A stretch of 59,332 nucleotides of DNA from positions 1 through 59,332 of the IMG/VR virus record IMGVR_UViG_3300046463_000857; one strand, 5' to 3'. This DNA comes from a virus. The notes under the pieces were generated by a model. The model did no database searches. It was not told where the DNA came from and was given only the letters and a program-made list of their open reading frames with translations. Shown here in pieces: positions 4,449 through 44,634 of the stretch. Position 1 is the first letter of the stretch; every line of letters begins with the position of its first letter. Made by a program: the position numbers and the translations under genes.

Positions 4449-4526
4449 TGGTTGCGGGGGATGGATTTGAACCATCGACCTTCACGTTATGAGCGTGACG
4501 AGCTAGCCAGACTGCTCCACCCCGCA
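4449..4526 (-). tRNA. tRNA-Met (CAU anticodon), CCA encoded
   Basis: A complete cloverleaf on the minus strand. The acceptor stem is 7 bp (TGCGGGG with CCCCGCA), then discriminator A and a genomically encoded CCA. The D stem is GAGC/GCTC, and the anticodon stem TCACG/CGTGA holds loop CTCATAA, giving anticodon CAU. The T arm is GATGG-TTCAAAT-CCATC. The anticodon stem lacks the three G-C pairs of initiator tRNA, so elongator Met is likelier; tRNA-Ile2 with a modified C34 cannot be excluded. Confidence 0.93.
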
Positions 4527-9121: not shown

Positions 9122-9262
9122 CTACCAGAAACCACATTCGTCGTGATATCGCCCATGGGTCCCAGGGAGCAAGTCCCACAGACGACAGCCGTGCCGCCAG
9201 GACTCCCAGCAGCAGTGGACGAAGCAACAGAGAAGCCCGATTGCGAATTTGATTCGCGTCAT
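9122..9262 (-). CDS. Possible 46-aa Cys/Trp-rich peptide
   Basis: The ATG overlaps the stop of the 9259-9453 gene as ATGA, and the frame stays open for 46 codons (MTRIKFAIGLLCCFVHCCWES...). The hydrophobic, Cys-rich start could be a signal or membrane segment. The other frames of this stretch are also open for some distance, so coding is uncertain. Confidence 0.32.
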   Translation of the reverse strand: MTRIKFAIGLLCCFVHCCWESWRHGCRLWDLLPGTHGRYHDECGFW

Positions 9263-9453
9263 ATTCTTGAACGGATATGCACCTCGTTCTTCGGAACGAG
9301 ATGGAGCTGATACCGCGAATCCACCAGCAAATATTTATCGGCGGGCACCTTGTGCTTCAGGTGGTCGCTTAAACAGCAGAGGCGATACCATTGCCCTTGG
9401 TAGACGCAATCAAACTCCGCTTTGTCCATTCCGGTTCGATATCGATACTTCAT
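9259..9453 (-). CDS. Hypothetical 64-aa protein
   Basis: MKYRYRTGMDKAEFDCVYQG... with YRLCCLSDHLKHKV and YLLVDSRYQLHLVPKNEV. A compact, probably beta-rich protein with three cysteines. It is the first gene of the leftward run after the repeat-rich gap at 9454-9925, so its promoter must lie in that gap. No recognised family. Confidence 0.5.
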   Translation of the reverse strand: MKYRYRTGMDKAEFDCVYQGQWYRLCCLSDHLKHKVPADKYLLVDSRYQLHLVPKNEVHIRSRI

Positions 9454-9496
9454 GAAACCAATTTAGCACACCTTCAGCGGTTGTCAAATCTTGTTT

Positions 9497-9528
9497 TTGT
9501 CAGAAAAATGACCCTATTTTTCTGACAA
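9497..9528. repeat. 13-bp perfect inverted repeat
   Basis: TTGTCAGAAAAAT (9497-9509), spacer GACCCT, then ATTTTTCTGACAA (9516-9528). The stem is AT-rich and symmetric, so it could be a bidirectional terminator-like hairpin or a dimeric protein-binding operator upstream of the 9453 gene. Confidence 0.8.
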
Positions 9529-9834
9529 AGTAAAGTCCGCGTTTTCTTTCATAAGCCCCTCGATGTCAAGAATTTTATTTCTCGGTATATCCACTAAGCG
9601 GGGCTCAGACGCCCGCGAACCCCCCAGGCCGACCCTCGAACTTTAACGATAAAGACTCGACGCCGAGGGCCGGTCGGCGCGCCTGGGCCTGGGGTGGCGC
9701 GTTGTGTTGACAATACGCCATAGAAACCAGCGAACGTTAACGATAAAGCACGCAATCGGGCCGACATCCAGGCCGCTCGACCATAAATCAGTGCAGAAAT
9801 TGCACCGAGCGCCCGATTTTCGCTTACCGGCAAG

Positions 9835-9910
9835 AGTGAGACAGAATGGCACACAGTGGGCCAGGATGACACAGTGAGACAGAATGGCACAAGTGAGACA
9901 AAATGGCACA
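9835..9910. repeat. Four tandem iterons, consensus AGTGAGACAGAATGGCACA
   Basis: Copies start at 9835, 9855 (degenerate: AGTGGGCCAGGATGACACA), 9873 and 9892, so the period is 18-20 bp. They are flanked by two palindromes, GTGCA-N5-TGCAC at 9791-9805 and 9911-9925; the second touches the stop codon of the next gene. Confidence 0.75.
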
Positions 9911-9925
9911 GTGCAATTATTGCAC

Positions 9926-10654
9926 TCATGTCTGGGCGTCCACAAGCTCTGCCTGAAGTGTGGCCTCGATGTTCTGCTGCTCTGCCTTGGCAAGCTGCTG
10001 GTCAAACACCAGGGCACGCGGAGAGGTGGATGCACTGGCCTTCGACATCGCGTCAGCAATGGCGCTGTGAATCTCCTGCGATGTCGGTCCGCTGTCGTCG
10101 TTCTCTTCCTTGAGTCGGCGCGCGCGGTCCGGCGTCGTGTCGTTGAGAGCGTAATAAGACATCATGTGCGCCTTCTCAATCGCTGAAGTAAGGTCAGTCA
10201 AACCGCGTGCAGAAAATTTGCGTTCGACAACCTTGTCACCGTTCTTGCTCGTGGTCTCAGTCTCCTGGAATAGCTGCGCGAAAAGCTCCTGGTCGTTCAT
10301 GTCATACAGCCGCTTCACTGCGCGCTCCAACACCATTCGCATCCGAGTAATCTGTCCGAAGTTCAGCGTGCGGTTGACCATCCGCTCAATCTCTTTTGGT
10401 TTCGCATTCTTCTTGAGCGTAACAATGGGCTGAATCTTTTCCTTCCATTGCTCTTCGTCAACCATGCGCTGCAATGCGACAGCGTCAATCTTGCACTCTG
10501 CTGCGGTGCGCGCGACATCGCCACTGGTCGCGAGGTAAACCATGAACACATTCTGACGGTCCATTTCAACGACAGGCAAATTGTCTGGCGTCTTCACCAG
10601 GGCCACGACCTTGCGTCGTTGTCTGCGTGCTTCCTTGGCTTCGAATTCGTCCAT
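9926..10654 (-). CDS. Possible terminase small subunit (HTH DNA-binding, helical)
   Basis: A 242-aa protein from MDEFEAKEARRQRR; GGAG lies 8 nt upstream and the previous gene stops 2 nt before. Residues ~35-65 form an HTH-like unit (MVYLATSGDVARTAAECKI, ALQRMVDEEQW) of the kind used by small terminases to recognise packaging sites. Long helices follow (IERMVNRTLNFGQITRMRMVLERAV) suited to ring oligomerisation, and the C-terminal part is Ala/Gln-rich. Immediately downstream are iterons and palindromes that could be its binding site. No large terminase follows, which weakens the call; a different HTH regulator is the alternative. Confidence 0.45.
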   Translation of the reverse strand: MDEFEAKEARRQRRKVVALVKTPDNLPVVEMDRQNVFMVYLATSGDVARTAAECKIDAVALQRMVDEEQWKEKIQPIVTLKKNAKPKEIERMVNRTLNFGQITRMRMVLERAVKRLYDMNDQELFAQLFQETETTSKNGDKVVERKFSARGLTDLTSAIEKAHMMSYYALNDTTPDRARRLKEENDDSGPTSQEIHSAIADAMSKASASTSPRALVFDQQLAKAEQQNIEATLQAELVDAQT

Positions 10655-14074: not shown

Positions 14075-15505
14075 GTGCCGCTGTTACCGACCGCTTATGG
14101 AGTCCGCCCGCCTGCGCCAAAAGATTTTGGCCCTCTCGCTGACCCACCTCCGAATCCGGAAATAAATGACATCTACTTCGACACTACTCAGGGCTTCCGT
14201 TTCGTATGGAATGGACTCTTCTGGGCGACAATTGCAAACGGTGGCGGAGGTGGAAGTGGCACTGGGCCGACTGGAGCAACCGGCCCGCGCGGTTCTACTG
14301 GACCGTCTGGTGCTGCTGGCAGCCAAGGTGCAACGGGTGACACTGGAACGACCGGACCTACGGGACCAACTGGCTACAGTGGGCCGACTGGAAACACTGG
14401 CCCTACTGGATACACTGGGGATACCGGGCCTGGGGGACCCGCAGGCGGACCTACTGGACCGACCGGCTACACCGGATACACCGGCCCAAATTCTGGCTTC
14501 ACCGGAGATACCGGTCCGACTGGTTACACAGGTTACACGGGACCCGCAGGCGCGGGCTCAACTGGACCCACTGGACCAACTGGCTATACTGGCCCGACCG
14601 GGCCGGGGATAGCAAGCACCGCGTATGGCGAAATTCATTTGCTCTCAGACTCGACGGTGCTGGTCGCTGTGCCCGGGACTTATTACAATTTCAGCACCAC
14701 CTGGGTTGCTGGTGACACGTTCAACACGACGGTCAACACGGCGACGGGAGAAATCACTGTCCTGGTTGACGGAGAATATCGCGTCTCTGTGTCGCTGGAT
14801 TTTCAGTGCATCACGGCGAACCAACTCCAGTATCGTATCTTCAAGAATGGAGTGCTTGTCCCAGGCTTCACGCTCAAGGTTGTTCCGGCGAATGGAGGTT
14901 ACACTAATGTCCTCATCGCGCTCAACGGAATCGTTTCATGCCTAGCCAATGATATTCTCTCCGTTAAAGTCGGCAATAACGCAGGCGGCACATTCAATCT
15001 CACGACTCACGATGCGGTTTTCGCGGTCTCGTTGGTTAATGGAGCCCGAGGCGATACAGGTCCAGCAGGCCCTACAGGCTATACCGGTTATACTGGTGGT
15101 GCTGGTGCCACTGGGGACACTGGCCCGACTGGTTACACTGGCCCTGCTGGGATTCCAGGTGCTACTGGGCCTACTGGGTTTACTGGTCCTACTGGATACA
15201 CGGGACCGACGGGTTACACGGGGGACACTGGCCCGGGCGGCACAGGAACCACCGGAGACACTGGACCAACTGGCTACACGGGTTACACGGGACCAGGGAA
15301 TTTCACAGGATACACTGGACCTACTGGCCCTACCGGATACACTGGTCCAGCCGGTGGGTCTGGGACTAATGGACCTACCGGGCCAACCGGGTATACCGGC
15401 TACACTGGGCCGCAGGGACCCACCGGATACACAGGTTACACCGGGTATACAGGTTACACGGGGCCAGTGAGTCCCGATGTTCTCTACATCCAGGTAATGA
15501 GTTGA
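14075..15505 (+). CDS. Collagen-like tail fibre with central C1q/BclA-like domain
   Basis: 476 aa from a GTG directly after the GCGACT-N7 motif. Residues 1-55 are Pro-rich and contain [16 protein letters not shown], likely the virion-attachment end. Two Gly-x-y blocks (about residues 57-172 and 325-468), rich in GPT and GYT triplets, would form collagen-like triple helices. Between them, ~150 residues ([44 protein letters not shown]) have the jelly-roll pattern of C1q/TNF-like trimer domains, as at the C-terminus of BclA. Probable trimeric fibre or receptor-binding protein. The GYT triplet bias is unusual. Confidence 0.85.
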
Positions 15506-31632: not shown

Positions 31633-31806
31633 ATGAACAAATTCAAAAAACGTATCCGTAAGGACCAGCAGACCAAAAATCCCCTCCCCCGCAACCTTCC
31701 CTATCTTCTCCCGGATGAATTCTCAGGCGTGGACCTGAATCTCCGGACAGCGAAGTGTGGCCGCGCGTGGGCCGCAGTGCAGGAGGCTTACCGTGGGACC
31801 CGCTAA
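31633..31806 (+). CDS. Small basic hypothetical protein
   Basis: 57 aa, MNKFKKRIRKDQQTKN..., then LPDEFSGVDLNLRTAKCGRAW. The 3' end contains the AGGAGG ribosome-binding site of the next gene and overlaps it by 14 nt. Function unknown. Confidence 0.5.
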   Translation: MNKFKKRIRKDQQTKNPLPRNLPYLLPDEFSGVDLNLRTAKCGRAWAAVQEAYRGTR

Positions 31807-32026
31807 AAAATTCTCCAAGGGTAGGACGGGAGAAGGCTACAAAGAGCAGATGCACATCGGCCAGCGAATCGCTGCGGCACTTCCTCAACGAATGACCCGT
31901 GCGGAAGTTGCGAAAAGACTGGGCATCAGCCGGACCATGGTTGCCCGGGAAGAATGCCTCGCACTGTTTAAGCTCCAGGTCAGGCTCCGGGCTGCCCTGG
32001 GCATGGCGCAAGGATTGAACGATTGA
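31793..32026 (+). CDS. HTH DNA-binding protein
   Basis: 77 aa from a GTG preceded by a perfect AGGAGG at 8 nt, one of the best ribosome-binding sites in the window. Residues ~33-60 form a helix-turn-helix (MTRAEVAKRLGISRTMVAREECLAL) like sigma region 4 or small regulators. The gene ends inside three tandem GATTGAAC copies, which could be an operator for it or for the nuclease gene downstream. Likely a transcription regulator; target unknown. Confidence 0.72.
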   Translation: MGPAKKFSKGRTGEGYKEQMHIGQRIAAALPQRMTRAEVAKRLGISRTMVAREECLALFKLQVRLRAALGMAQGLND

Positions 32027-32038: not shown

Positions 32039-32182
32039 ATGATAACTTTTTTCATTATCTGGTTTCTCGTTCTCTCCGGTTTAGCTATTCTCCCGTCAGA
32101 AGAAAATGTCAGACCCGAAAACAATCATGACTGTTCCAACTGCAACCGGCCCCGCTGCACCGGTTGCAGTTCCAGAGACTGA
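32039..32182 (+). CDS. Possible small membrane protein with CxxC pairs, overlapping the nuclease start
   Basis: A 47-aa frame: a hydrophobic span (MITFFIIWFLVLSGLAILP) and then CSNCNRPRCTGC. The second half lies inside the 5' end of the nuclease gene in another frame, so the cysteine pattern may be accidental. Included because the membrane span fills the gap before that gene. Confidence 0.3.
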   Translation: MITFFIIWFLVLSGLAILPSEENVRPENNHDCSNCNRPRCTGCSSRD

Positions 32183-33392
32183 GGTCGAAAGACCACATCA
32201 CCCCTATTCGCCTTCGTCCCTGGCGAACCTGGAAGCTTGCCCGGATTACATTGGCCGGGATTCGAAAGCGGTTCGTTCGATTATTGGCACCATCGCCCAC
32301 AAGGCTACTGAGACTCAGGAGGACGACACCCGGCTGGATGACGATGACGCGGCAGCGGTGGCAGAGTGCTTGGACTTCGTGGAAGAGCGGCGATTAATTC
32401 TCCAGCAGGAAGCTACCGCAGCAGTGACCGACAACAATGGAGTGTTAACCGGCACGCCAGTGGAAATCCAGGAGCTAAAAGAAGCTTACCTTCCGATTGA
32501 TGACATCGTTTTCGATGATGCAATTTCAACCACGGCTGGATACGTGGACCACGTTTTACTCAACTACAATATAACCTATGCAGAAGTCATTGACTGGAAA
32601 TTCGGCTACTGGGCAGTTGAAGGCGCGGAAACGAATCCGCAAGGTATCGCCTATGTCCTGGGTCTTTTCAAAAAGTATCCTTCACTCCGCGCCGTTAGAT
32701 TTTGGTTCAAGCAGCCACTTATCGGGCTGCTGTCTGAGCACACATTCAACCGGGAAGAAATCCCCGTTCTCTATCTTCGAATTCAAGCTATCGTTGCCCG
32801 TGCGCGACTCGCTCGAAGAAAGCAGGATTTTTCGACAGCTAGGGCGTATGTCCCGGCCTGTAATTTCTGTGCGAATCTCGGACGCTGCCCAATCGGATTA
32901 GCCAATGCGTTGAAGGTTGGCAAGAAGTTTCACCCGCTGGAATTTCCTGACGACATCACGCCGACAATGATACTCGACCCGCAGAACACCAAGAAGGCGC
33001 TCACGTTAGCGTCCGTGGTGAAAATCTGGGCGGAGGCATTCCGTAGGCAGGTCACGGACCGAGTGCTGCGAAACGACGCAGCGGTTCCTGAGGGCATGAT
33101 TATCCAAACCATGCCTGGACGCCGGGGCATAGTGGACCTTTCGAAATTCCGCGAGATAGCGTTGCAATACGTGACCAGGGACGAATACGAAAAATGCCTG
33201 GACGCTACCTTCGGTCCCATCGAGGAAATCATCAAGGATAAAAGTCCTCGCGGCACGAAGAAGTCCGCAGTAGAAGATTTTAAGAAAGCTCTGGTTGATT
33301 CCGGTGCAGTCGTTCACGGGGATGGATACGCTTTCTTGAAGGTTCAAAACGACAAAGGTAAAAACAACGTAACACAAAAACAAAATGAGTGA
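32106..33392 (+). CDS. PD-(D/E)XK nuclease (DUF2800/RecB-like)
   Basis: 428 aa. SPSSLANLEACP and GTIAHKATE (residues ~37-70) are the conserved entry motifs. GYVDHVLLNYN and AEVIDWKFGYW (~144-163) carry the D...D-x-K core, and NPQGIAYVLGL is the following Q-x-x-x-Y helix. A cysteine cluster CNFCANLGRC near residue 263 could hold an iron-sulphur or zinc centre, as in Cas4/AddB-like nucleases. It probably processes DNA ends in recombination. The stop overlaps the next start by 8 nt, suggesting joint action. Confidence 0.85.
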   Translation: MSDPKTIMTVPTATGPAAPVAVPETEVERPHHPYSPSSLANLEACPDYIGRDSKAVRSIIGTIAHKATETQEDDTRLDDDDAAAVAECLDFVEERRLILQQEATAAVTDNNGVLTGTPVEIQELKEAYLPIDDIVFDDAISTTAGYVDHVLLNYNITYAEVIDWKFGYWAVEGAETNPQGIAYVLGLFKKYPSLRAVRFWFKQPLIGLLSEHTFNREEIPVLYLRIQAIVARARLARRKQDFSTARAYVPACNFCANLGRCPIGLANALKVGKKFHPLEFPDDITPTMILDPQNTKKALTLASVVKIWAEAFRRQVTDRVLRNDAAVPEGMIIQTMPGRRGIVDLSKFREIALQYVTRDEYEKCLDATFGPIEEIIKDKSPRGTKKSAVEDFKKALVDSGAVVHGDGYAFLKVQNDKGKNNVTQKQNE

Positions 33393-34221
33393 AATAGTGT
33401 TTGGTAAAAATGAGCAGCCGGTCACTGATGTGGCTGGAACTACTGCTACGCCTGCAACCACTGCGGTTATTCCCGCTCCGGTCGCTGGCCCGGTCGCCGT
33501 CGCTGCCCCGAGCAGCAGCGGCTTGTTGCTGGGAGACTTCATCCCGGCCTTCGAGGACATCATCATCCCCCGGGTGAACATCGTCCAGAACATGGGCGAG
33601 CTTAAGGACACCTTCGAACTGGGCTCGCTGGTCTACGACCAGAAGGCAGTTCTGTTTGTGCCCCCGCGCCTCAAGGACGGCGCAGTGGTTCGCGCTGCGA
33701 CTGCTCCAGTGAACATGGTGGTTATCGGCTTCCGGCCTACCCGGTATGTCGAGAAAACTACCGGTGGCGCGCGCGGCCTTATCGTGAAGAACGTCGCCGA
33801 GGTTGCCTCGAACGGTGGCACCACGGACTACCAGGAATGGAAGCTGAAGGAGAAATCCGGATGCAAACTGTTCCAGCCCCTGGTGGACGCGTTCATCGCG
33901 GTCGAACGTCCGGCTGACTATCCGGATGACGACACGGTCTTCAACTACCCGGTTGGAGACAGAAAATTCGCCCTGGCTCTCTGGGCGATGAAGGGCGCGG
34001 TTTACACCGCTGCCGCGAAGAAGGTTTTCTTCACGGCTCGCAAGATGGGAATTCTGCGGAAGGGTGGTTACCCCTCCTACGAGTATGCCGTCACCACGAA
34101 GGAAGAGACCTACGGCACGGGCAACAAAGCCTGGGTCCCGGTCTGCATCGCCACGAAACCCACTACCCCGGAGTTTCTGGAATTCGTGAGGAATGCGCTC
34201 GAAGCGCCCGCCACTGAATAA
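33385..34221 (+). CDS. Nuclease-partner protein, possibly single-strand DNA binding
   Basis: 278 aa. A low-complexity Thr/Ala/Pro/Val N-terminus (~residues 15-45) precedes a globular domain with IIIPRVNIVQNMGEL, FELGSLVYDQKAVLFVPPRLKDG and a C-terminal VPVCIATKPTTPEF. Proteins at this place next to DUF2800 nucleases are often single-strand DNA-binding or recombination mediators; this is a positional inference, no OB-fold motif is certain. It is followed by a strong terminator, so it ends the operon. Confidence 0.5.
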   Translation: MSEIVFGKNEQPVTDVAGTTATPATTAVIPAPVAGPVAVAAPSSSGLLLGDFIPAFEDIIIPRVNIVQNMGELKDTFELGSLVYDQKAVLFVPPRLKDGAVVRAATAPVNMVVIGFRPTRYVEKTTGGARGLIVKNVAEVASNGGTTDYQEWKLKEKSGCKLFQPLVDAFIAVERPADYPDDDTVFNYPVGDRKFALALWAMKGAVYTAAAKKVFFTARKMGILRKGGYPSYEYAVTTKEETYGTGNKAWVPVCIATKPTTPEFLEFVRNALEAPATE

Positions 34222-34242
34222 TCAGACACGCGGATTGCACAG

Positions 34243-34272
34243 GGCACCGTGGATTAATTCACGGTGCCTTTT
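34243..34272 (+). terminator. Intrinsic terminator
   Basis: GGCACCGTG (34243-34251), loop GATTAATT, CACGGTGCC (34260-34268), then TTTT. A 9-bp perfect GC-rich stem with a U-run, 21 nt after the stop. Confidence 0.88.
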
Positions 34273-34305
34273 CCATTAGATAAACTACAAACTGCAAATA
34301 GGGGG

Positions 34306-34333
34306 TTGCGTTTAAACGGGCCGGGTGTATCTT
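34306..34333 (+). promoter_or_regulatory. Sigma70-like promoter, leaderless type
   Basis: -35 TTGCGT (34306-34311), 16-bp spacer with GTTTAAAC ending GGGTG, -10 TATCTT (34328-34333); ATG at 34340 is 6 nt downstream. Nearly identical to the copy at 20221. Confidence 0.72.
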
Positions 34334-34339
34334 GGTGGC

Positions 34340-34756
34340 ATGAATGAAAATTACATGGTAGTCAGCGTCAAAGACCTGAAGGGTCTTCTCCGCAAAGCCC
34401 GCGCCCAATGCAAGGGTGACAAGTCTGGTGACAAAGCTTGCGTGGTTCTCTCGGTGGATATCGCCCTGGTGAACGGCAAAAATCAGGTGCAGATTCCTTC
34501 CTGCTATACTCACGGTTCCGCTCCCCTTTCTCCTCTGGGTCGGCCTAACAGGGTCGCTGAGAGAGTTCTCTGGTCGTTCACTTTCATCGGTGGCGGCTTT
34601 AATCAGGTCTACGCGGTCACCAAGGACGAAGCCCTTGCCCAGGCGCGCCGCGAACTGCCCACGCTCGCCAATCAGATTGACGAGAACAGTTTCAAGGCCC
34701 TTCGCACTCGCGACGAGCAGGACGCCTATTACGCCGCATTCCCCAACATGGACTAA
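34340..34756 (+). CDS. Hypothetical 138-aa early protein
   Basis: MNENYMVVSVKDLKGLLRKARAQCKGD..., with a beta-rich middle (CVVLSVDIALVNGKNQVQIP) and a helical end (DEALAQARRELPTLANQIDE). The start is set by the leaderless promoter. No domain recognised. Confidence 0.62.
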   Translation: MNENYMVVSVKDLKGLLRKARAQCKGDKSGDKACVVLSVDIALVNGKNQVQIPSCYTHGSAPLSPLGRPNRVAERVLWSFTFIGGGFNQVYAVTKDEALAQARRELPTLANQIDENSFKALRTRDEQDAYYAAFPNMD

Positions 34757-34760
34757 TTTT

Positions 34761-35000
34761 ATGGCCAAACCTTTTGGATACGTTCTCAAGTCCCAGGTCC
34801 AGACGAATTTTCCCTGGATGGGCAAACGCTGGTCGGACGCGCGGAATTGCTGCGGCGATTTTCGCCGGTTACTCGGAGACGCTAAGGTCTACAAGCGGCT
34901 CAGCAGTGCGAAGCAATTCGTCGCTACCCTGGACGTCGTGCCGGTCTATTCAGACCCTCGCGCGACCGGCAACTTGGCGCTCCGGCCAATCGAGGAATAA
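34761..35000 (+). CDS. Hypothetical 79-aa protein
   Basis: MAKPFGYVLKSQVQTNFPWMGKRW..., basic, with YKRLSSAKQFVATLDVVPVYSD. It follows 4 nt after the previous stop. No family recognised. Confidence 0.57.
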   Translation: MAKPFGYVLKSQVQTNFPWMGKRWSDARNCCGDFRRLLGDAKVYKRLSSAKQFVATLDVVPVYSDPRATGNLALRPIEE

Positions 35001-35004
35001 TTTT

Positions 35005-35637
35005 ATGGCACAAAAACAAAAACACGAAAACCGAGAACAGTGGCTAGCCGCAGCAGTCCAGGCGATGCTACCGCTGTTCACCAAGCAGGGATACAAAGTC
35101 CCCAAGGTTCGCGTTAGCTGCGGCTGGCCCTCCAGTCGTGGTCTATCGGCGAAAAAATATTCAATCGGCGAATGCTGGGATGCGAAAGCGTCAACGGACA
35201 AGGTTCACCAGATTTTTATCTCGCCGCGACTCAAGGACCCGGTGGATTCCTACGGGGTTCTTCCGACACTCGCGCACGAGGTTGCTCATGCGGTCGTGGG
35301 CATCAAAGAAAAACACAACAAGGTGTTTGGGAAATGCGTGCGTTCAATCGGCCTGGAAGGAAAGCTCACCGCTACTTTTGGTGGCGAAGCGTTTCTCGCG
35401 GAGTCGAAGACAATCGTGGCGAAGCTTGGCGCGTATCCGCACGCCCAGCTTAATCCGAATATGCGCCCGGTGAAGAAGCAGACCACCCGGCTTATTAAAG
35501 CAGAGTGCGGTTCCTGTGGCTGCAACGTTCGAATCACCCGCAAGTGGCTCGAAGAAATCGGTGCCCCATTGTGCGCGTGCAACAGCAAGGCAATGAAATT
35601 CGAAATCCCCGAGGGGATGGAACTGGGGGACGAATGA
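35005..35637 (+). CDS. SprT-like zinc metalloprotease with C-terminal zinc ribbon
   Basis: 210 aa from an ATG with GAGGAA upstream. The active site is LAHEVAHAVVG (H91-E92-x-x-H95), followed by KEKHNKVFGKCVRSIGL, where the downstream His completes zinc binding. The C-terminal ribbon ECGSCGCNVRI...APLCAC (~170-200) is the second hallmark of SprT/Spartan proteins. Such proteases can digest DNA-crosslinked proteins. It lies among replication genes, unlike the shorter copy at 8158, suggesting a fork-associated role. Substrate is inference. Confidence 0.85.
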   Translation: MAQKQKHENREQWLAAAVQAMLPLFTKQGYKVPKVRVSCGWPSSRGLSAKKYSIGECWDAKASTDKVHQIFISPRLKDPVDSYGVLPTLAHEVAHAVVGIKEKHNKVFGKCVRSIGLEGKLTATFGGEAFLAESKTIVAKLGAYPHAQLNPNMRPVKKQTTRLIKAECGSCGCNVRITRKWLEEIGAPLCACNSKAMKFEIPEGMELGDE

Positions 35638-35909
35638 GTTTTCTCGAATGCCTCGCCCTCGTCGTATACGGGGGCACGCTGTTCGTGCTCCTCGTGCTCA
35701 TGGTCGCGGCTCTGGTAGTCGGACCCCTAGGGCTACTAAGCTCAAAGGCCAGCGACAGGGTTAAGGGTATCGGAATGCTCGTCTGGCTGGGGCTACTGGT
35801 GTTTGCGTTCGCAGGAGCTTTTTATATCCGCGATAATCATCCGGCTTGGACTGACCCAGAGAGGTTCGTGCATCAGTTTTTTGTGCCTCCTACGGCAGAG
35901 AAACCATGA
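35634..35909 (+). CDS. Small membrane protein, two spans
   Basis: 91 aa from an ATG overlapping the SprT stop. Two membrane spans: ALVVYGGTLFVLLVLMVAALVVG and IGMLVWLGLLVFAFAGAFYI, joined by a short basic loop, with a polar tail. Function unknown. Confidence 0.62.
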   Translation: MSFLECLALVVYGGTLFVLLVLMVAALVVGPLGLLSSKASDRVKGIGMLVWLGLLVFAFAGAFYIRDNHPAWTDPERFVHQFFVPPTAEKP

Positions 35910-36106
35910 ATTGCCCCGTCTGCAATCAGCCGTTGTCCGAGCAACCGGGAAACCAGATTCATCCTGGTGACCCGAAATTCGGAATGACGGTCTACTGCGC
36001 AAATCCCAAGTGCTCTGCGGCTGAAGTCGCAGGGCACGGGTCAACTTCGAAAGAAGCCTTTTCAATCGTTAACCAAAAATTTGAAAAACGAAAATCCAAT
36101 GAGTGA
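35906..36106 (+). CDS. Small zinc-ribbon protein
   Basis: 66 aa: MNCPVCNQPL...YCANPKCSAAEV...TSKEAFSIVNQKF. The C-x-x-C...C-x(4)-C ribbon followed by an E-A-F/I-x-x-V/W-N helix recalls the restriction-alleviation (Lar) type of small phage proteins, but the match is loose, so only zinc ribbon is claimed. ATGA-coupled to the membrane protein. Confidence 0.6.
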   Translation: MNCPVCNQPLSEQPGNQIHPGDPKFGMTVYCANPKCSAAEVAGHGSTSKEAFSIVNQKFEKRKSNE

Positions 36107-36446
36107 AGAAGTAATGGAGCTTGGGACCCTTCGTATCCTAAACGAAGCAGCCGTGCGCGAACATGCGCTCCGCTGTTCAAAAGAAATCCGCCTAGGAAAA
36201 TTCACCCGCGTGGGGCAAGACTTCCTGGATGAAGTAAGGGCCGACGTGGAATCCCTGGTCCGGGCTATCGACCAGGGTGCCGGAGTTTCCCAGGAAGATT
36301 TTCTGAATCCTGGCGAATTAGGTTTCACCACGGGGGCTCTTTCTGATAGAGTCATGGAGAAATGGAATCTGGTCATTGCCAAGATAATTCAGCGGAAGGT
36401 CAAGCGGATGCCCTCAGTGGGTGTAACGTTGGGCCGGACCAGATAG
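36099..36446 (+). CDS. Helical DNA-binding-type hypothetical protein
   Basis: 115 aa from MSEEVMELGTL. The segment ALRCSKEIRLGKFTRVGQDF and the following helix LDEVRADVESLVRAI resemble a recurring phage/bacterial pattern (R-x-G-K-F-T-R-V) with a histone-fold-like spacing of helices; that similarity is only impressionistic. Overlaps the previous gene by 8 nt and is followed by a strong terminator. Confidence 0.5.
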   Translation: MSEEVMELGTLRILNEAAVREHALRCSKEIRLGKFTRVGQDFLDEVRADVESLVRAIDQGAGVSQEDFLNPGELGFTTGALSDRVMEKWNLVIAKIIQRKVKRMPSVGVTLGRTR

Positions 36447-36454
36447 CAAACCCT

Positions 36455-36500
36455 GCCGTCCTGGTGGACTCTTGGCACCAGGACGGCTCTTCTATTTGTC
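36455..36500 (+). terminator. Intrinsic terminator
   Basis: GCCGTCCTGGTG (36455-36466), loop GACTCTTGG, CACCAGGACGGC (36476-36487), then the T-rich TCTTCTATTTGTC. A 12-bp perfect stem between the stop at 36446 and the next ATG. Confidence 0.82.
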
Positions 36501-36502
36501 TT

Positions 36503-36685
36503 ATGGACTATTTAATCAGCGGCGCATCGATGTGTGCAACCGGGCATCCCAAAATCTGGCACAAGGAAAAAGAGTGTCCTCTGTGCAAGGCCGAAGCGGA
36601 ATTGGGCAAGAAGGAATACGAAGCTACACAACTCGAAGGCACCATTGACAGCCTGCGAACCGAAATTCAAGGCTACGCGCAGTGA
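36503..36685 (+). CDS. Small zinc-finger coiled-coil protein
   Basis: 60 aa, MDYLISGASMCATGHPKIWHKEKECPLCKAE, then a coiled-coil-like helix (QLEGTIDSLRTEIQ). The C...H...C-P-L-C set could bind one zinc. Its stop overlaps the GTG of the polymerase (GTGA), so it is co-translated with it. Confidence 0.55.
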   Translation: MDYLISGASMCATGHPKIWHKEKECPLCKAEAELGKKEYEATQLEGTIDSLRTEIQGYAQ

Positions 36686-38682
36686 GCCACATCAGCCTAG
36701 ACTTCGAGACATTTTACTCGAAGAAGCTCAAATACGGCCTGAAGCAACTCATTGCTGAAGACTACTGCCGTCACGAGCTTTTCGACTGCTACCTTTTGTC
36801 CGCTTGCAACGGGCCGATAGTCTGGGCTGGTGCCCCGGGGGAATTCAACTGGGAGTCGGTTCACGGCGCTGTCGTCGTGAGCCACAACCGGTATTTCGAT
36901 AACACTGTTTTCAACGAGCTTCAGCGGCGCAATCTAATCCCCGCGCATGTCAAGCCAGCCGCGTGGCACTGCACCGCTAACCTGACTTCGTATCTCTGCA
37001 ACCGGCGCGCGCTCGCTGAAGCGGTTCTGCACCTCTACAAAACGAAGGTGGGAAAAGATTATCGCGACATCATGGATAACGCGAAATTCGCGGACCTTAC
37101 CGAGGCTCAGCGGACCCAGGTCGTGGACTCCGGCAAGGTGGATGCATATTGGGCCTGGAAGCTCTGGGAAGACTACGGCTCGCAGTGGCCGGAGCACGAA
37201 CAAATTTTAAGCAACATCACAATCGACCAGGGCATGCACGGCGTGCAAATCGACACCGCGCTGCTCGATAGCTACATCCTTCAAACGCATGACGTCAAAC
37301 ACAACACCGAAAAAATCATCCCCTGGCTTCGCGATGACGAGTCCGAAGATTGGGATGATTTCAACTGCAAGCCTACCTCCACTAAGTGCATCGCAGAGCA
37401 ATGCCGGAGAATGGGAATCCCGTGCCCGCCGACGAAGTCGGAGGACGAAGAGGGTTACGAAGAGTGGGAGCTTCAATACGCCAAGCAGCACCCCTGGATT
37501 AAGGCTGTTTCTGCTTGGCGCTCTATAAACAAACTGTATTGCACTTTTCTCACGGTGAAACGCAGGTTGCGTTCCGACGGCACGATGCCGTTCGCCCTGA
37601 AATATTTCGGCGCGCACACTGGCAGGTGGTCCGGAGATGCGAAGATTAATTTTCAGAACATGCGGAAGAAGCCGATGCTGGTGACCATAGAAGGCACCAT
37701 GGAATCGGATGATATCCGGGTCCAGCAGGCGCTCGACCACAAGGACGAGCACGGGGTTTACCCGGACTGGGTGAAGCACGCTATCGATTTCCGGGCTCTG
37801 ATTATCCCCCGGCCTGGAAAGAAAATGATTGCATGCGATTTATCACAAATCGAGCCGCGTGTCCTCGCATACATTTCAGGCAATTCAAGATTGCTCAAGC
37901 TCATTCAAGAGGGTTATGGGGTGTATGAAGCCTTCGCGGTCGCATCCATGGGATACACCGGACCCCGGTTTGACAGAAACACCAAGAAGACCGACTGGTA
38001 TAAGATGATTAAAATCCAGGTGTTGGGCCTGGGCTATGGTGCTGGCTGGGAAAAGTTTATCGCGATTTGTGCGAAAGAAGGCGGAATCGATATCACCAAA
38101 GACGACCCGGAGTTTGAAGAGATTCACGACCTGGGCGCGCCGGGTGGTATCAGGAAGATTCCCGGCTGGGGAAAGAAGAGCCGCGAGATTGTGAAAACGT
38201 TTCGCGAACAAAATCCCCTGGTGTTCTCAGTAGAACATAACGGCTTGAGCCCGCGTCTGGATTCTAAACTCCGGTCCTCGGTCGGCGAGGACTTCAAAGT
38301 AACGTTGCCTAGCGGTCGCGTGATTTTCTATCGAGATGTCCGACTCGCCGTGGAGATTACAAAAGACCCGGTGAGCGGGAGACCTATCCGAAAGAATAAA
38401 GCGACCGCTGACGTGGGAGGGAAACGAAAGACTTTCTATGGGGGCAAGCTGGTTGAGAATATTGTCCAGGCCACGGCTCGTGAAGTGTTCGCCCGCCAAT
38501 TGGTGGAGATGCACAAGCGAGGCTGGTGGAATCTATTTTCAGTTCACGACGAAGCCGTGCTGGAAGTGGACCTGAACGTCACCGCAAAAGATGTCGAAGA
38601 AGAGATGTCGAAGACTCCTGACTGGCTGGTAGGTTGCCCGATTGCAGCGGAGGGTAAAGAACTGCAACACTACGAGAAATAA
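36682..38682 (+). CDS. Family A DNA polymerase with 3'-5' exonuclease domain
   Basis: 666 aa from a GTG. Exonuclease motifs: SLDFETFYS near the N-terminus (D-x-E), HNRYFDNTVF as Exo II and KVDAYWAWKLWEDY as Exo III. Polymerase motif A is ACDLSQIEPRVLA (~385), motif B KIQVLGLGYGAGW (~443) and motif C SVHDEAVLEV (~620). This is a compact proof-reading replicative polymerase of the phage PolA type, without a 5'-3' nuclease domain. Motif B is split from motif C by a long insertion (IHDLGAPGGIRKIPGW...). It is the probable replicase of this phage. Confidence 0.93.
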   Translation: MSHISLDFETFYSKKLKYGLKQLIAEDYCRHELFDCYLLSACNGPIVWAGAPGEFNWESVHGAVVVSHNRYFDNTVFNELQRRNLIPAHVKPAAWHCTANLTSYLCNRRALAEAVLHLYKTKVGKDYRDIMDNAKFADLTEAQRTQVVDSGKVDAYWAWKLWEDYGSQWPEHEQILSNITIDQGMHGVQIDTALLDSYILQTHDVKHNTEKIIPWLRDDESEDWDDFNCKPTSTKCIAEQCRRMGIPCPPTKSEDEEGYEEWELQYAKQHPWIKAVSAWRSINKLYCTFLTVKRRLRSDGTMPFALKYFGAHTGRWSGDAKINFQNMRKKPMLVTIEGTMESDDIRVQQALDHKDEHGVYPDWVKHAIDFRALIIPRPGKKMIACDLSQIEPRVLAYISGNSRLLKLIQEGYGVYEAFAVASMGYTGPRFDRNTKKTDWYKMIKIQVLGLGYGAGWEKFIAICAKEGGIDITKDDPEFEEIHDLGAPGGIRKIPGWGKKSREIVKTFREQNPLVFSVEHNGLSPRLDSKLRSSVGEDFKVTLPSGRVIFYRDVRLAVEITKDPVSGRPIRKNKATADVGGKRKTFYGGKLVENIVQATAREVFARQLVEMHKRGWWNLFSVHDEAVLEVDLNVTAKDVEEEMSKTPDWLVGCPIAAEGKELQHYEK

Positions 38683-38683
38683 T

Positions 38684-40927
38684 ATGTTTCTATACGCAGA
38701 GAACGCCGTCACCAATACGCTCCTAAGCGGAGTAGAGCCGTGGGACTTTAAACCCACGGAGAAAATTACCGAGCAGATTCGAAAGGTAAAAGAGGACCGG
38801 CAGGCATGGTATCAGAATCCGGACACGAAGCATTATTTTTACACCCTCATTGAGCCGCTGAATCCCCGGCTGAGGGTAACGAAGGAGAGCAATCCGCCGC
38901 AACTCGTCAGAGGATTCTCGCCGGACTTCGACATCGCCTGTCCCCGGGAAACCATAATGCAAGCCATCGAGTCGATGAAGTATAAGCCCTCATGGCTGGA
39001 GCACTCGCTGGGCGGAAACTTTCGATTGATATATCTCTTAGAAGAGCCGATTCGAGTCCATGATTTTTCGTTCGCAATTTTCCTGCACCAGCACGCCAAA
39101 ATATGGTTGAACCTCAAGCTGCTCCCATGCCTGGACGAGCCTGCGTTTGAAAATCCTACCCGGCTGCTGTGTAGGGGCGACCTATGGGAGGACCTGAAGC
39201 ATCCTCCAATCAAAGCAAAAGACTCACAATACTTTTTCTTCCAGACAGCCAAGGAATACAAATTCAAGCCGACAGAAAGCGACCAGATTCCTCTTGCTAC
39301 TGTCGAGAAGGCGCTGAAGGAAAAATATGCTGCGTATGAGTGGCCGGACGAATTCGAAGTTAACTCCCAGGGGCCTTCACACTGGTTTGTCCCGGGCAGC
39401 ACCTCGCCGATGTCCGCAGTCGTCAAGTCGGGCGGCATCACTTGTTATTCCGCTCATGCGGACAAAGGCTACTACACATGGGCCGACTTGTTAGGCGGCG
39501 ATTTCGTGACGGAGTATCTGGCCAATGCGTATACCCAGGCCACACGCGATTGCTGGTATGACGGGCACGACTATTTTCGCAAGATTCATGGCCGCTACGA
39601 ATCGGTCAACGAAGCCAGCTTCAAGCTCTATCTGCGGGTCGAGTGCAAGCTATCTGGCAAGCCGGGGCCGGATGGAATCTCTCCGATTGACCAAGCACTG
39701 CATCACGTCCAATCGGAAAATCGAGTCGCTAGCGCGGGCTCTTTTGTGTTCATGAAACCGGGCTTGGTTACCTTCCAAGGGGAGCTACGTTTAAACAACT
39801 ACAAGCGGAAGCCAATTGAGCCCGCTGTAGGCACACAGAAGTGGGGTCCCCATGGCGGCGCGCCGTTCTGTTCATTCATCCTACAAAATCTGTTCGCACC
39901 CCCGGTTTCCGGGAGAGAAGAGCAGATTCAACTTCCGTGGTTTCTCGCCTGGGCGCAGTATGCCTATTTGTCTGCAATAAATTGGACTCCTTTGCCCGGG
40001 CATAGACTGGGAATGTGCGGGCCGACTGGCTCCGGCAAAACGCTGGTTAACCGAGAATTCATCGGCGCTTTGCTGGGTGGATTTGCGGACGCTACCCGGT
40101 ATCTTGTGGGAGGAGAGACTTTTAATGCTTACCTTATGGATGTGGCCCATTGGGTGCTAGACGACGAGGTTCCCGCAAACACTCCTGGCGCACGCGCGAA
40201 GGTAGCGGCGCTCCTCAAAAAAGTGACCGCGCAGTCCGGCCTGATTAGCAATGACAAGTTTCGCAAACAGGGATTGGTGGACTGGAATGGCCGCGTAGGC
40301 ATGACTCTAAACATGGACTTCGAGTCGATGCGAATTCTAACCGCGAGTCTGGATAACAATTCGATGGACAAAATGGTTTTGTTCCGTTGCCAGAATCTGC
40401 CCAATTTTAAATTCCCGTCTCGCACGGAGATTCAGAAGATGCTAGCCGTGGAGCTTCCGGTGCTGGGTAGGCTGCTCGTTGATTTCAAATGGCCTGACTA
40501 TATCGAAGCGACGAGGGATTCACGCTACGGATTTCTTGCATTCCACGACGAGCTTATGGTCGAGCGCGGCAGGCAGACTGCTCCGTCGGCGATGTTCCGC
40601 GAACTGCTGATAGAGACTCTCCGGCTCTGGTTCCAGGACAATCCCGAAGCTCCCAGGTATTCCGGGACTACCTCCGCCATCATCCGAATGATTAATCAGA
40701 ACGCATTTAATCAGGACCTGATGCGCGGCTACAAGTCAGACCAAATCAACAGATTTTTGGAGCAGATACAGACCGAAGGTTTGCTAAAATGCTCCGTTCA
40801 CACTGCCCCTGATAAGACTCGCGTCTGGACCTTCGAGCGTTTTGATACAGAGGCGGTTCCCACCCTTAACCCAACGACTGGAGTTTCATTTGAATCCCCT
40901 CGACCCATTTCCCCTGAAGCTAAGTAA
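38684..40927 (+). CDS. Primase-helicase (SF3/D5-type AAA+ with N-terminal primase-like domain)
   Basis: 747 aa starting 1 nt after the polymerase stop. C-terminal AAA+ module: Walker A GMCGPTGSGKTLVN (~446), Walker B HWVLDDEVP (~489), sensor region RVGMTLNMD, as in virus SF3/D5 helicases. The N-terminal half has SPDFDIACP, a D-x-D like motif I of archaeo-eukaryotic primases, then GGNFRLIYLLEEP and LDEPAFENPTRLLCRG, in the order seen in PrimPol-type proteins. It probably unwinds and primes the phage fork. The primase activity is inferred; the helicase call is firmer. Confidence 0.8.
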   Translation: MFLYAENAVTNTLLSGVEPWDFKPTEKITEQIRKVKEDRQAWYQNPDTKHYFYTLIEPLNPRLRVTKESNPPQLVRGFSPDFDIACPRETIMQAIESMKYKPSWLEHSLGGNFRLIYLLEEPIRVHDFSFAIFLHQHAKIWLNLKLLPCLDEPAFENPTRLLCRGDLWEDLKHPPIKAKDSQYFFFQTAKEYKFKPTESDQIPLATVEKALKEKYAAYEWPDEFEVNSQGPSHWFVPGSTSPMSAVVKSGGITCYSAHADKGYYTWADLLGGDFVTEYLANAYTQATRDCWYDGHDYFRKIHGRYESVNEASFKLYLRVECKLSGKPGPDGISPIDQALHHVQSENRVASAGSFVFMKPGLVTFQGELRLNNYKRKPIEPAVGTQKWGPHGGAPFCSFILQNLFAPPVSGREEQIQLPWFLAWAQYAYLSAINWTPLPGHRLGMCGPTGSGKTLVNREFIGALLGGFADATRYLVGGETFNAYLMDVAHWVLDDEVPANTPGARAKVAALLKKVTAQSGLISNDKFRKQGLVDWNGRVGMTLNMDFESMRILTASLDNNSMDKMVLFRCQNLPNFKFPSRTEIQKMLAVELPVLGRLLVDFKWPDYIEATRDSRYGFLAFHDELMVERGRQTAPSAMFRELLIETLRLWFQDNPEAPRYSGTTSAIIRMINQNAFNQDLMRGYKSDQINRFLEQIQTEGLLKCSVHTAPDKTRVWTFERFDTEAVPTLNPTTGVSFESPRPISPEAK

Positions 40928-42067: not shown

Positions 42068-42876
42068 AGAATCTCAATCAGTCGGAACCGATTCAGCTTT
42101 CCAGCCGGGAGCTTTCGACCCGGTTCATGATAGACACTTGCCTCCAGGTGTTCTCCACCGCTGGCGCGGTAATGAGTCACTGGATGCGGACCCCACCCGG
42201 CGTGAACATGTTCGGCATGCCCGAGGCTGCCCCCGCAGAGGTTCCTCCGCTGACTCCCGCCGAGACCGAGACCAAAATCGAATGCGAGAATACACTTCGC
42301 GCGGCTGCGAACCGCATTCAGAAAATCATGGATGACGACGACCGCTGGAGCCTGGAGTTTCAGAAGCGGACCGAAAAGCATTTTGAAGACATCGCACAGA
42401 GACAGCGGGACGTCCTCGATATGCAACGCAAGTCCGCCGAGGAACATCTGCTGGCCACCCAGGAAGTCTCTTCACCGCATTTTCGCTACAAGCCCGCGCT
42501 CTGCCGCCTGTTGGACGGAAACTGGCTGGCCTACCTGGGCGACATCAATGACCTGGAGCACGCCTTAGTCGGTGTGGGTCCCACGGCGCAAATCGCGCTC
42601 GAAGCTTTTGACGGAGCCTTTAGGGGTGTGCTACACCCAGCCACACAGGAGTGGTTAATAAAACGGGAACAGAACCTAGAAACCGGGGCCGAAGACGCTC
42701 CATATCCTAAAACACATGAGTTGGACCAAAACGCAAATCGACACCTTGACGAGCCTCCGGCAGGAGGGTTACAGCAACCCGGCGATAGCCACCAAGATGG
42801 GCAAGAGCCTGGATGCGGTGGTGAACAAAATCCGCCGACTGAGCCTGAGCCGCCCATTGACGGCTGGGTCCGCTGA
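42028..42876 (+). CDS. Hypothetical protein whose 3' end overlaps the metallophosphoesterase
   Basis: 282 aa from MGTNTPISRK (an ATG at 42016 is also possible). Residues ~80-150 are helical/coiled coil (ECENTLRAAANRIQKIMDDDD, KHFEDIAQRQRDVLDMQRK), followed by a small globular part (GNWLAYLGDINDLEHALVG). The last ~53 codons read through the start of the next gene in a different frame and are low-complexity (Gln/Gly/Pro/Glu), which looks like a non-selected tail. Function unknown. Confidence 0.58.
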   Translation: MGTNTPISRKVPVKNLNQSEPIQLSSRELSTRFMIDTCLQVFSTAGAVMSHWMRTPPGVNMFGMPEAAPAEVPPLTPAETETKIECENTLRAAANRIQKIMDDDDRWSLEFQKRTEKHFEDIAQRQRDVLDMQRKSAEEHLLATQEVSSPHFRYKPALCRLLDGNWLAYLGDINDLEHALVGVGPTAQIALEAFDGAFRGVLHPATQEWLIKREQNLETGAEDAPYPKTHELDQNANRHLDEPPAGGLQQPGDSHQDGQEPGCGGEQNPPTEPEPPIDGWVR

Positions 42877-43774
42877 CCCTGCTGCTCCTGCGCTCGCGGC
42901 GGAAACCGAGATTCCTGTTCTCCAGGAGCCAGTCACGCTGCCCCGGCCTACCTTCGGATATCTTCCGTTGGAAGTCGTGAACACCGGCGACTGGATTCGC
43001 CACGGACTGGTCGCAGACACACACATGTGCTGCAAGGAAGAACGCCTCGCAGAACTGCACGCCCAATACGACCTTTTCAAAGCCGAAGGACTCACGACCG
43101 TGTTCCATGCGGGCAACCCGATTGACGGCTATGTGGCGCGCATCAACGGTGAAAGTGTTTTCTCCTCGACCATCGATGGACAGGCGCAATACTTCGCCGA
43201 CAACTATCCGCAGCGGGAAGGCATCACGACTTACTTCATCACCGGCGACGACCACGAGTCCTGGTTTGCTCCCGGCTTCAACATCGGGTCATACATGGAG
43301 CTTGTCGCCCGCAAAAATGACCGAAAGGATTTGCGCTATATCGGTCACGTCGAAGCGGACGTCGCGATTAAGGCCGGTGCCGTGCCGACTATCATCAAAA
43401 TCATGCACCCCGGTGGTGGTTCAGCGTATGCGCGCAGCTACACGGCGCAGAAGATTGTGGAGTCTCTGGAGGGTGGCGAAAAGCCGTCTATCCTGGTGCT
43501 GGGCCACTATCACGTCTCGAACTACATGCAAGAGCGCAACATTCACGTCGTGTCTCTGCCGGGGTTTCAGGACCAAACAATTTTCGCTCGCAAGAAACGC
43601 CTGCGGATGGAAGTCGGCGGGGCGATTATGGAATTCAAAGTGAACCCGGACGACGGCTCTGTCACCCGGTTCAGAGTGGAAATCAATCGCTTTTTCACGC
43701 GCGGATACTACAAGCGGTTCATCCGTTCAGACGCGAGGTTGATTAAGGGCCAGCTTGAACTGACCCCCGGTTAA
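42716..43774 (+). CDS. HTH-metallophosphoesterase fusion
   Basis: 352 aa. Residues 1-45 (WTKTQIDTLTSLRQEGYSNPAIATKMGKSLDAVVNKIRRL) form a Myb/GcrA-like helix-turn-helix. The calcineurin-like domain from ~85 has VADTHMCC (D-x-H), FHAGNPIDG where GD is usual, FITGDDHESW in place of GNHE, IMHPGGG and VLGHYH. These bind two metals for phosphoester hydrolysis. The Asp-to-Asn change in the second motif would remove a bridging ligand and may lower activity. HTH plus nuclease suggests sequence-guided DNA work. Its stop shares TTAA with the convergent gene. Confidence 0.8.
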   Translation: MSWTKTQIDTLTSLRQEGYSNPAIATKMGKSLDAVVNKIRRLSLSRPLTAGSADPAAPALAAETEIPVLQEPVTLPRPTFGYLPLEVVNTGDWIRHGLVADTHMCCKEERLAELHAQYDLFKAEGLTTVFHAGNPIDGYVARINGESVFSSTIDGQAQYFADNYPQREGITTYFITGDDHESWFAPGFNIGSYMELVARKNDRKDLRYIGHVEADVAIKAGAVPTIIKIMHPGGGSAYARSYTAQKIVESLEGGEKPSILVLGHYHVSNYMQERNIHVVSLPGFQDQTIFARKKRLRMEVGGAIMEFKVNPDDGSVTRFRVEINRFFTRGYYKRFIRSDARLIKGQLELTPG

Positions 43775-44458: not shown

Positions 44459-44634
44459 TATTTGCGGGCTCTGGGTCGAGCCTGCACAAGCCCCTGGCGG
44501 CTCTTTTCCTTCCGGTCGAGGTGTTCTACCACTTCCTGCCAGAACGGGTCCTGGGAGTAGATATCCGAGGCAATCCGGGCCGCTACCTGCTGCTCCCGGG
44601 TGTATTCTTTCTGCAATTTAGTGTTTACTTTCAT
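44458..44634 (-). CDS. Small charged hypothetical protein
   Basis: 58 aa: MKVNTKLQKEYTREQQVAARIASDIYSQ, then QEVVEHLDRKEKSRQGLVQ and a basic tail. Mostly helical. The ATG overlaps the stop of the 2466-residue protein as ATGA. Its TAG is followed at once by a promoter motif. Not long enough for domain assignment. Confidence 0.6.
   Translation of the reverse strand: MKVNTKLQKEYTREQQVAARIASDIYSQDPFWQEVVEHLDRKEKSRQGLVQARPRARK

Follow-up and report, generated by a model that had tools for sequence, protein, structure and literature searches.

A non-coding locus lying directly beyond the stop codon of a probable small terminase gene (terS) is marked by tandem 19-bp repeats (iterons) and exact palindromes that are conserved among related phages, almost confined to the locus, and exchanged between close relatives. 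It was found in a viral sequence of 59,332 nucleotides (IMGVR_UViG_3300046463_000857; hereafter the window) and is a real, dedicated cis-acting regulatory locus. Our leading explanation, held tentatively, is that it nucleates phage DNA replication in the manner of SPP1 oriR.

Repeats and palindromes beside terS

The repeat AGTGAGACARAATGGCACA is present exactly at 9835, 9873 and 9892 on the plus strand, while the copy at 9855 is degenerate; all four positions had been given correctly in the preliminary description. Exact matching likewise confirmed the flanking GTGCA-N5-TGCAC palindromes at 9791-9805 and 9911-9925, the second of which lies, as had been described, directly beside the stop codon of the helix-turn-helix (HTH) gene (9926-9928). 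Allowing up to three mismatches, the window holds 3 iteron matches, compared to 0.01 in shuffled windows. The GTGCA palindrome occurs nowhere else in the window and is found 0.06 times per shuffled window, with two copies within 150 bp in 0 of 150 shuffles; among the 82 same-arm 5-N5-5 palindromes of the window, the GTGCA pair is the only one to fall within 150 bp. Eight TGRSMCA heptamers make up the repeats; they lie at 9837, 9847, 9857, 9867, 9875, 9885, 9894 and 9904 and are spaced by 10, 10, 10, 8, 10, 9 and 10 bp – approximately one helical turn. The whole plus strand carries 38 such heptamers, and shuffled sequences reach at most 3 per 80 bp. Chance does not explain the repeats and palindromes.

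With a spacing of 18-20 bp the iterons are tandem, directly repeated sites of the kind expected of an origin. On one side of the block is the stop codon of the 9926-10654 gene; on the other, a longer non-coding stretch runs to about 9454 (Table 1).

Table 1. Elements of the control region, in window coordinates
Feature	Position	Strand	Basis or remark
TerS-like HTH gene, 242 aa	9926..10654	-	12-homologue alignment, HTH model, synteny with TerL
Palindrome AGTGCAATTATTGCACT, touching the TerS stop codon	9910..9926	.	
Iteron copy AGTGAGACAAAATGGCACA	9892..9910	+	
Iteron copy AGTGAGACAGAATGGCACA	9873..9891	+	
Degenerate iteron copy AGTGGGCCAGGATGACACA	9855..9873	+	
Iteron copy AGTGAGACAGAATGGCACA	9835..9853	+	
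Eight TGRSMCA heptamers, 8-10 bp spacing	9837..9910	+	
Conserved left core TAAGCGAAAATCG	9814..9826	-	TRAGCGA in most relatives
Palindrome GTGCAGAAATTGCAC	9791..9805	.	Counterpart in relative G004 duplicated as TGTGCAAATTTTGCACA
GTTAACG element, minus-strand CTTTATCGTTAACG	9726..9748	.	
Second GTTAACG-type element, minus-strand CTTTATCGTTAAAG	9632..9654	.	
Conserved right core CGCTTAG, inverse of the left core	9594..9600	-	CGCTYAG in relatives
14-bp perfect inverted repeat TTTGTCAGAAAAAT	9496..9529	.	Inside AT-rich 9484-9533 (72% AT)
Sigma70-type promoter-like TTGACA-N16-TAAATT	9460..9487	-	By eye; before ORF 9259-9453 (minus)

By eye, a TTGACA-type pattern precedes the next ORF in several relatives also. 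The inverted repeat at 9496-9529 sits where the region is richest in A and T, and a similar pair (GTCAGAAAAA/TTTCTGAC) stands ahead of a TTGACA site in relative G017.

The phage and its probable small terminase

The window is a piece of a phage of approximately 73 kb: a second record, IMGVR_UViG_3300046663_000412 (73,277 bp), is identical to it at every overlap examined and extends 14 kb further left. This left part encodes a 658-aa protein with Walker-type motifs (GAAKMGKS and FLDE), the C-terminus of which matches annotated large terminases (E values of 1e-5 to 8e-5; the structure model, built on a two-sequence alignment, has a pLDDT of 32), followed by a 714-aa portal-like protein. The large terminase (TerL) gene that the preliminary description proposed to seek beside the region is thus present in the fuller genome, about 10.8 kb downstream of the TerS-like gene and on the same strand. 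Homologues of the TerS-like gene occur in more than 35 (about 40) contigs in all, and in every relative with a long-enough contig the gene lies 7-11 kb upstream of that for TerL, with 7-8 kb being the distance in the relatives checked. An alignment of 12 homologues shows 27-38% identity and places the conserved start at 10654, the 327-aa ORF that reaches to 10909 overlapping the upstream gene. The predicted fold, of moderate confidence (pLDDT 68), comprises an HTH, long helices and a beta hairpin. Fold searches gave weak matches, with several small terminases among the low-ranked viral ones, and neither family nor fold searches returned a confident named relative. The protein has no match in the phage collection or in the bacterial genome collection. 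On synteny and predicted architecture the gene at 9926-10654 is very probably the small terminase: what had been called a possible small terminase is well supported by synteny with TerL in relatives, and the modelled HTH architecture fits.

Several other features of these genomes were recorded. A 252-aa serine recombinase (Resolvase domain) is encoded between terS and terL (L008:3470-4228; window about -87 to 671); it is present in 10 of 10 TerS-family genomes compared and absent from G002, a phage considered below. A tRNA-Met gene lies at 4449-4526 (minus strand), and tRNA genes are found downstream of the locus in several relatives too. Positions 14075-15505 hold a collagen-like tail fibre gene, 44631-52031 a gene for a 2,466-aa protein kept in ten genomes of the group, and 42716-43774 a gene whose product combines a GcrA-like N-terminus with a weak match to calcineurin-type phosphoesterases. 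Next to the exonuclease gene, positions 31757-32026 encode an 89-aa protein whose short HTH by eye resembles sigma-70 region 4, with homologues only in G004 and G023 among 11 genomes compared; the replication genes span 32106-40927.

Conservation of the locus in relatives

The phages concerned form a widespread, uncultured group with genomes of about 70-75 kb. In most of them terS is followed by a non-coding region of 300-450 bp made up of the same kinds of element. Two cores, TRAGCGA on the left and CGCTYAG on the right, are accompanied by one or several iterons or palindromes, by a GTTAACG element, and by two stretches of biased composition, one C/G-rich and the other A-rich; GGCAA-N3-TTGCC is often present as well, and a TTGACA promoter-like site commonly precedes the next ORF. 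What varies is the identity of the sites, which include TGTGCCA-N3-TGTCYCACT, GCGTGA-N3-TCACGC, TTGGGT-N2-ATACACCCAA, GTCCC-N6-GGGAC, GTGCA-N5-TGCAC, TTTCTGT-N4-ACAGAAA and others.

In 772 kb of sequence from 11 genomes, the matches falling within the locus were 5 of 5 for the iteron, 8 of 8 for the GCGTGA palindrome, 3 of 3 for TGGGT and 4 of 5 for the GTGCA palindrome; the motifs were picked from the locus, and the informative part of these counts is recurrence in genomes beyond that of first sighting. A pattern scan found the exact GCGTGA palindrome in 7 of 20 records, and every occurrence whose position was checked lies inside the locus. With one mismatch allowed, matches were scattered and roughly at the rate expected by chance. 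The contigs searched are marked as linear, the relatives are not independent of one another, and the position mostly next to terS is that of loci found through terS. The preliminary description had named a lack of conservation among the results that would count against it; that objection fails, as the repeats are kept in relatives and confined to the locus.

A 19-mer match in L010 was taken as chance: it belongs to a phage with no TerS match and has, by eye, no other element nearby. A site for a host factor was considered and rejected, the iteron pattern giving 4 single matches in the genome collection, which is about the chance level. Two further palindromes were noted in the course of these comparisons: a parS-like sequence, GTTCCACGTGGAAC, at L065:2278-2292, in the same non-coding region of relative G004; and a palindrome-like GTTAGGC-N-CGTCTAA near the locus in three phages (L011:1028-1050, L073:3622-3640 and L238 at about 2400), the GTTAGGC core of which resembles the ends of integron attC sites.

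Exchange and displacement of the sites

The phages that carry loci L085 and L086 are close relatives, with identical TerS HTH regions (alignment rows L041 and L044) and nearly identical non-coding regions. One carries a segment of about 45 bp with the iteron and GTCCCGAAAGTGGGAC, the other a segment with ATTGGGTGGATATACCCAATT: the iteron has been swapped for a TTGGGTGGATATACCCAA-type sequence under an identical TerS HTH. The position of the locus varies also. It lies downstream of terS by about 1 kb in L144 and L145 and by about 0.3 kb in L238; G039 has a GCGTGA and GTTAACG pair 3 kb upstream of the gene. The locus is therefore a separate entity that usually, but not always, touches terS.

G002 (66.6 kb) offers a natural test: at its strand switch, the 790 bp of non-coding DNA separating divergent genes contain the iteron, GCGTGAAAATCACGC and GAACGTTAACG (in motif terms, the iteron, the GCGTGA palindrome and GTTAACG). 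The packaging genes of G002 are of the SU10/Terminase_3 kind, with an SU10-like portal and capsid, and nothing in G002 matches the TerS, TerL or portal of the window phage; the two do have a homologous replication module in common (DNA polymerase, primase-helicase, exonuclease and helicase). The most AT-rich 50 bp of G002 (92%), unique in its genome, fall inside the same region. This pattern favours replication or general control over recognition by TerS. The simple proposition that the elements follow the replication module is weakened by 15 further TerS-less phage records (14 of them found via a homologous DNA polymerase), in which the exact GCGTGA palindrome is absent; the sites therefore do not simply follow the polymerase. 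These 15 phages may have other hosts.

Function of the locus

The exact palindromes and phased heptamers argue for sequence-specific binding proteins, probably dimers or repeat-binding oligomers other than TerS, that would occupy the iterons and palindromes. In the explanation we tentatively prefer, the locus – situated close to where the early and late gene blocks meet, usually immediately beyond terS – would, once bound, start phage DNA replication, this being its most likely job. When co-inheritance was compared, no initiator candidate was cleanly co-inherited with the sites; a family of 58-122-aa proteins tracks the GCGTGA palindrome in 5 of 6 genomes, but G002 lacks it and its members show no evident fold for binding DNA. 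The AT-rich stretch of the window is moderate (72%, with 10 peaks as high or higher), and in most relatives no outstanding AT-rich unwinding element was found at the locus. The check for a GC-skew inversion, suggested in the preliminary description, was uninformative: extrema of GC, AT and keto skew fall at the gene-strand switch, often 1-3 kb from the locus, and the GC extremum changes sign from one relative to another.

The preliminary description took the layout for that of a packaging-initiation site or replication origin. Either may apply, but the simplest packaging form, a pac site recognised by TerS, is disfavoured by the swaps and by G002. Under a pac reading, which is a live though less likely rival, TerS rings would bind the repeats and TerL would make the first headful cut nearby. 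In its favour, the locus abuts terS in the window, most relatives have it no more than a few hundred bp from the gene, and near-complete contigs terminate at scattered positions, which is what permuted headful genomes would give. Swapped repeats do not in themselves exclude pac, because SF6 lacks the boxA repeats of SPP1 even though the TerS proteins of the two are interchangeable (PMC4737164). Against this, the elements occur in a phage with an unrelated terminase and portal, differ under an identical TerS HTH rather than following a cognate TerS, and in some relatives lie 0.3-3 kb from terS; taken together, the unrelated terminase, the swaps and the shifts therefore fit a pac site read by TerS alone less well than a control locus read by other proteins. 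Exact palindromes of 15-18 bp also suggest dimeric specific binders rather than a TerS ring. A fixed genome terminus (cos) was rejected, since near-complete contigs of about 66-75 kb end at many places; one contig ends inside the locus, but that point is spanned by two contigs from the same virus or one very like it.

Only slightly less probable, and likewise a live rival, is control of transcription, with the palindromes serving as operators at which phage or host regulators switch a promoter into the adjacent late genes. Operators of dimeric regulators do resemble these palindromes, the region terminates in a promoter-like site of the TTGACA type both in the window and in several relatives, the divergent gene switch is close by, and in an unrelated phage an identical GCGTGA palindrome (TGCGTGATTTTCACGCA, L150:7269-7285) lies just upstream of a Cro/CI-like regulator gene. 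(The L150 copy is also near a serine recombinase.) However, as much as about 450 bp separates the sites from the promoter, no further copies stand at the other promoters of these genomes, promoters of this kind seem to precede other genes in these loci as well, and a repressor of the HTH_3 (Cro/CI) type scored above the family cut-off in 0 of 11 genomes. Least credible by far is a structured RNA some 280-310 nt long, with a TRAGCG/CGCTYA helix closing it. The complementary cores do vary together (TAAGCG/CGCTTA versus TGAGCG/CGCTCA) and folding energy is low in several loci, but this closing helix shows only one double change, and the two strands have the same folding z-scores (mean about -2 each), which is the outcome expected of DNA palindromes. 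RNAalifold returned a consensus structure of only -6.8 kcal/mol with a positive covariation term, no Rfam family was matched, and a search for stems enclosing conserved loops likewise gave nothing in its favour; the RNA reading is not supported.

A different view of the same data, which we regard as improbable though worth stating, treats the locus as a specificity cassette: at one fixed position, relatives would trade short recognition modules, either palindromes or iterons, the recognition proteins being encoded elsewhere or supplied by the host.

Relation to known systems

The origin of phage lambda lies within the initiator gene O and has four tandem 18-20-bp repeats. The window locus has the same number and length of repeats and differs in having no initiator gene O. 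In SPP1, a repeat-based origin, oriR, occupies a non-coding stretch interrupting the late region and is served by a known initiator, gp38, and an AT-rich unwinding element (PMC6316719). Direct repeats as sites, a non-coding stretch in the late region and a permuted genome are likenesses to SPP1 oriR and oriL, whereas here the initiator and unwinding element are only putative and palindromes are exchanged between relatives (PMC6316719). The pac site of SPP1 likewise has direct repeats at terS, and as in SPP1 and SF6 the repeats of the window touch the small terminase gene and differ between relatives (PMC4737164). SPP1 pac, however, overlaps the start of terS (PMC4737164), whereas the window locus lies beyond its stop codon; unlike pac of SPP1 and SF6, a locus of the window type may sit away from terS, and an unrelated terminase is found alongside the same elements. 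The origins and parS arrays of extrachromosomal mycobacteriophages are similar in being non-coding loci with repeat arrays (PMC7157519). In contrast to those parS systems, no parAB or repA was noticed in the window phage, the TerS of which has no relative in the bacterial genome collection.

Implications

Recognition of cis-acting sites is rare in uncultured phages. Conservation in more than 20 genomes defines one such locus here, in a phage group for which the phage collection searched contains no close cultured relatives. The cassette-like swapping of its sites between near-identical phages provides a natural set of variants for finding the protein that reads each site and the role – replication, packaging or late transcription – that it plays. 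If the locus is indeed a specificity cassette, then the replication or packaging control of co-infecting relatives would not cross-react, and the system would be a phage counterpart of plasmid iteron incompatibility groups.
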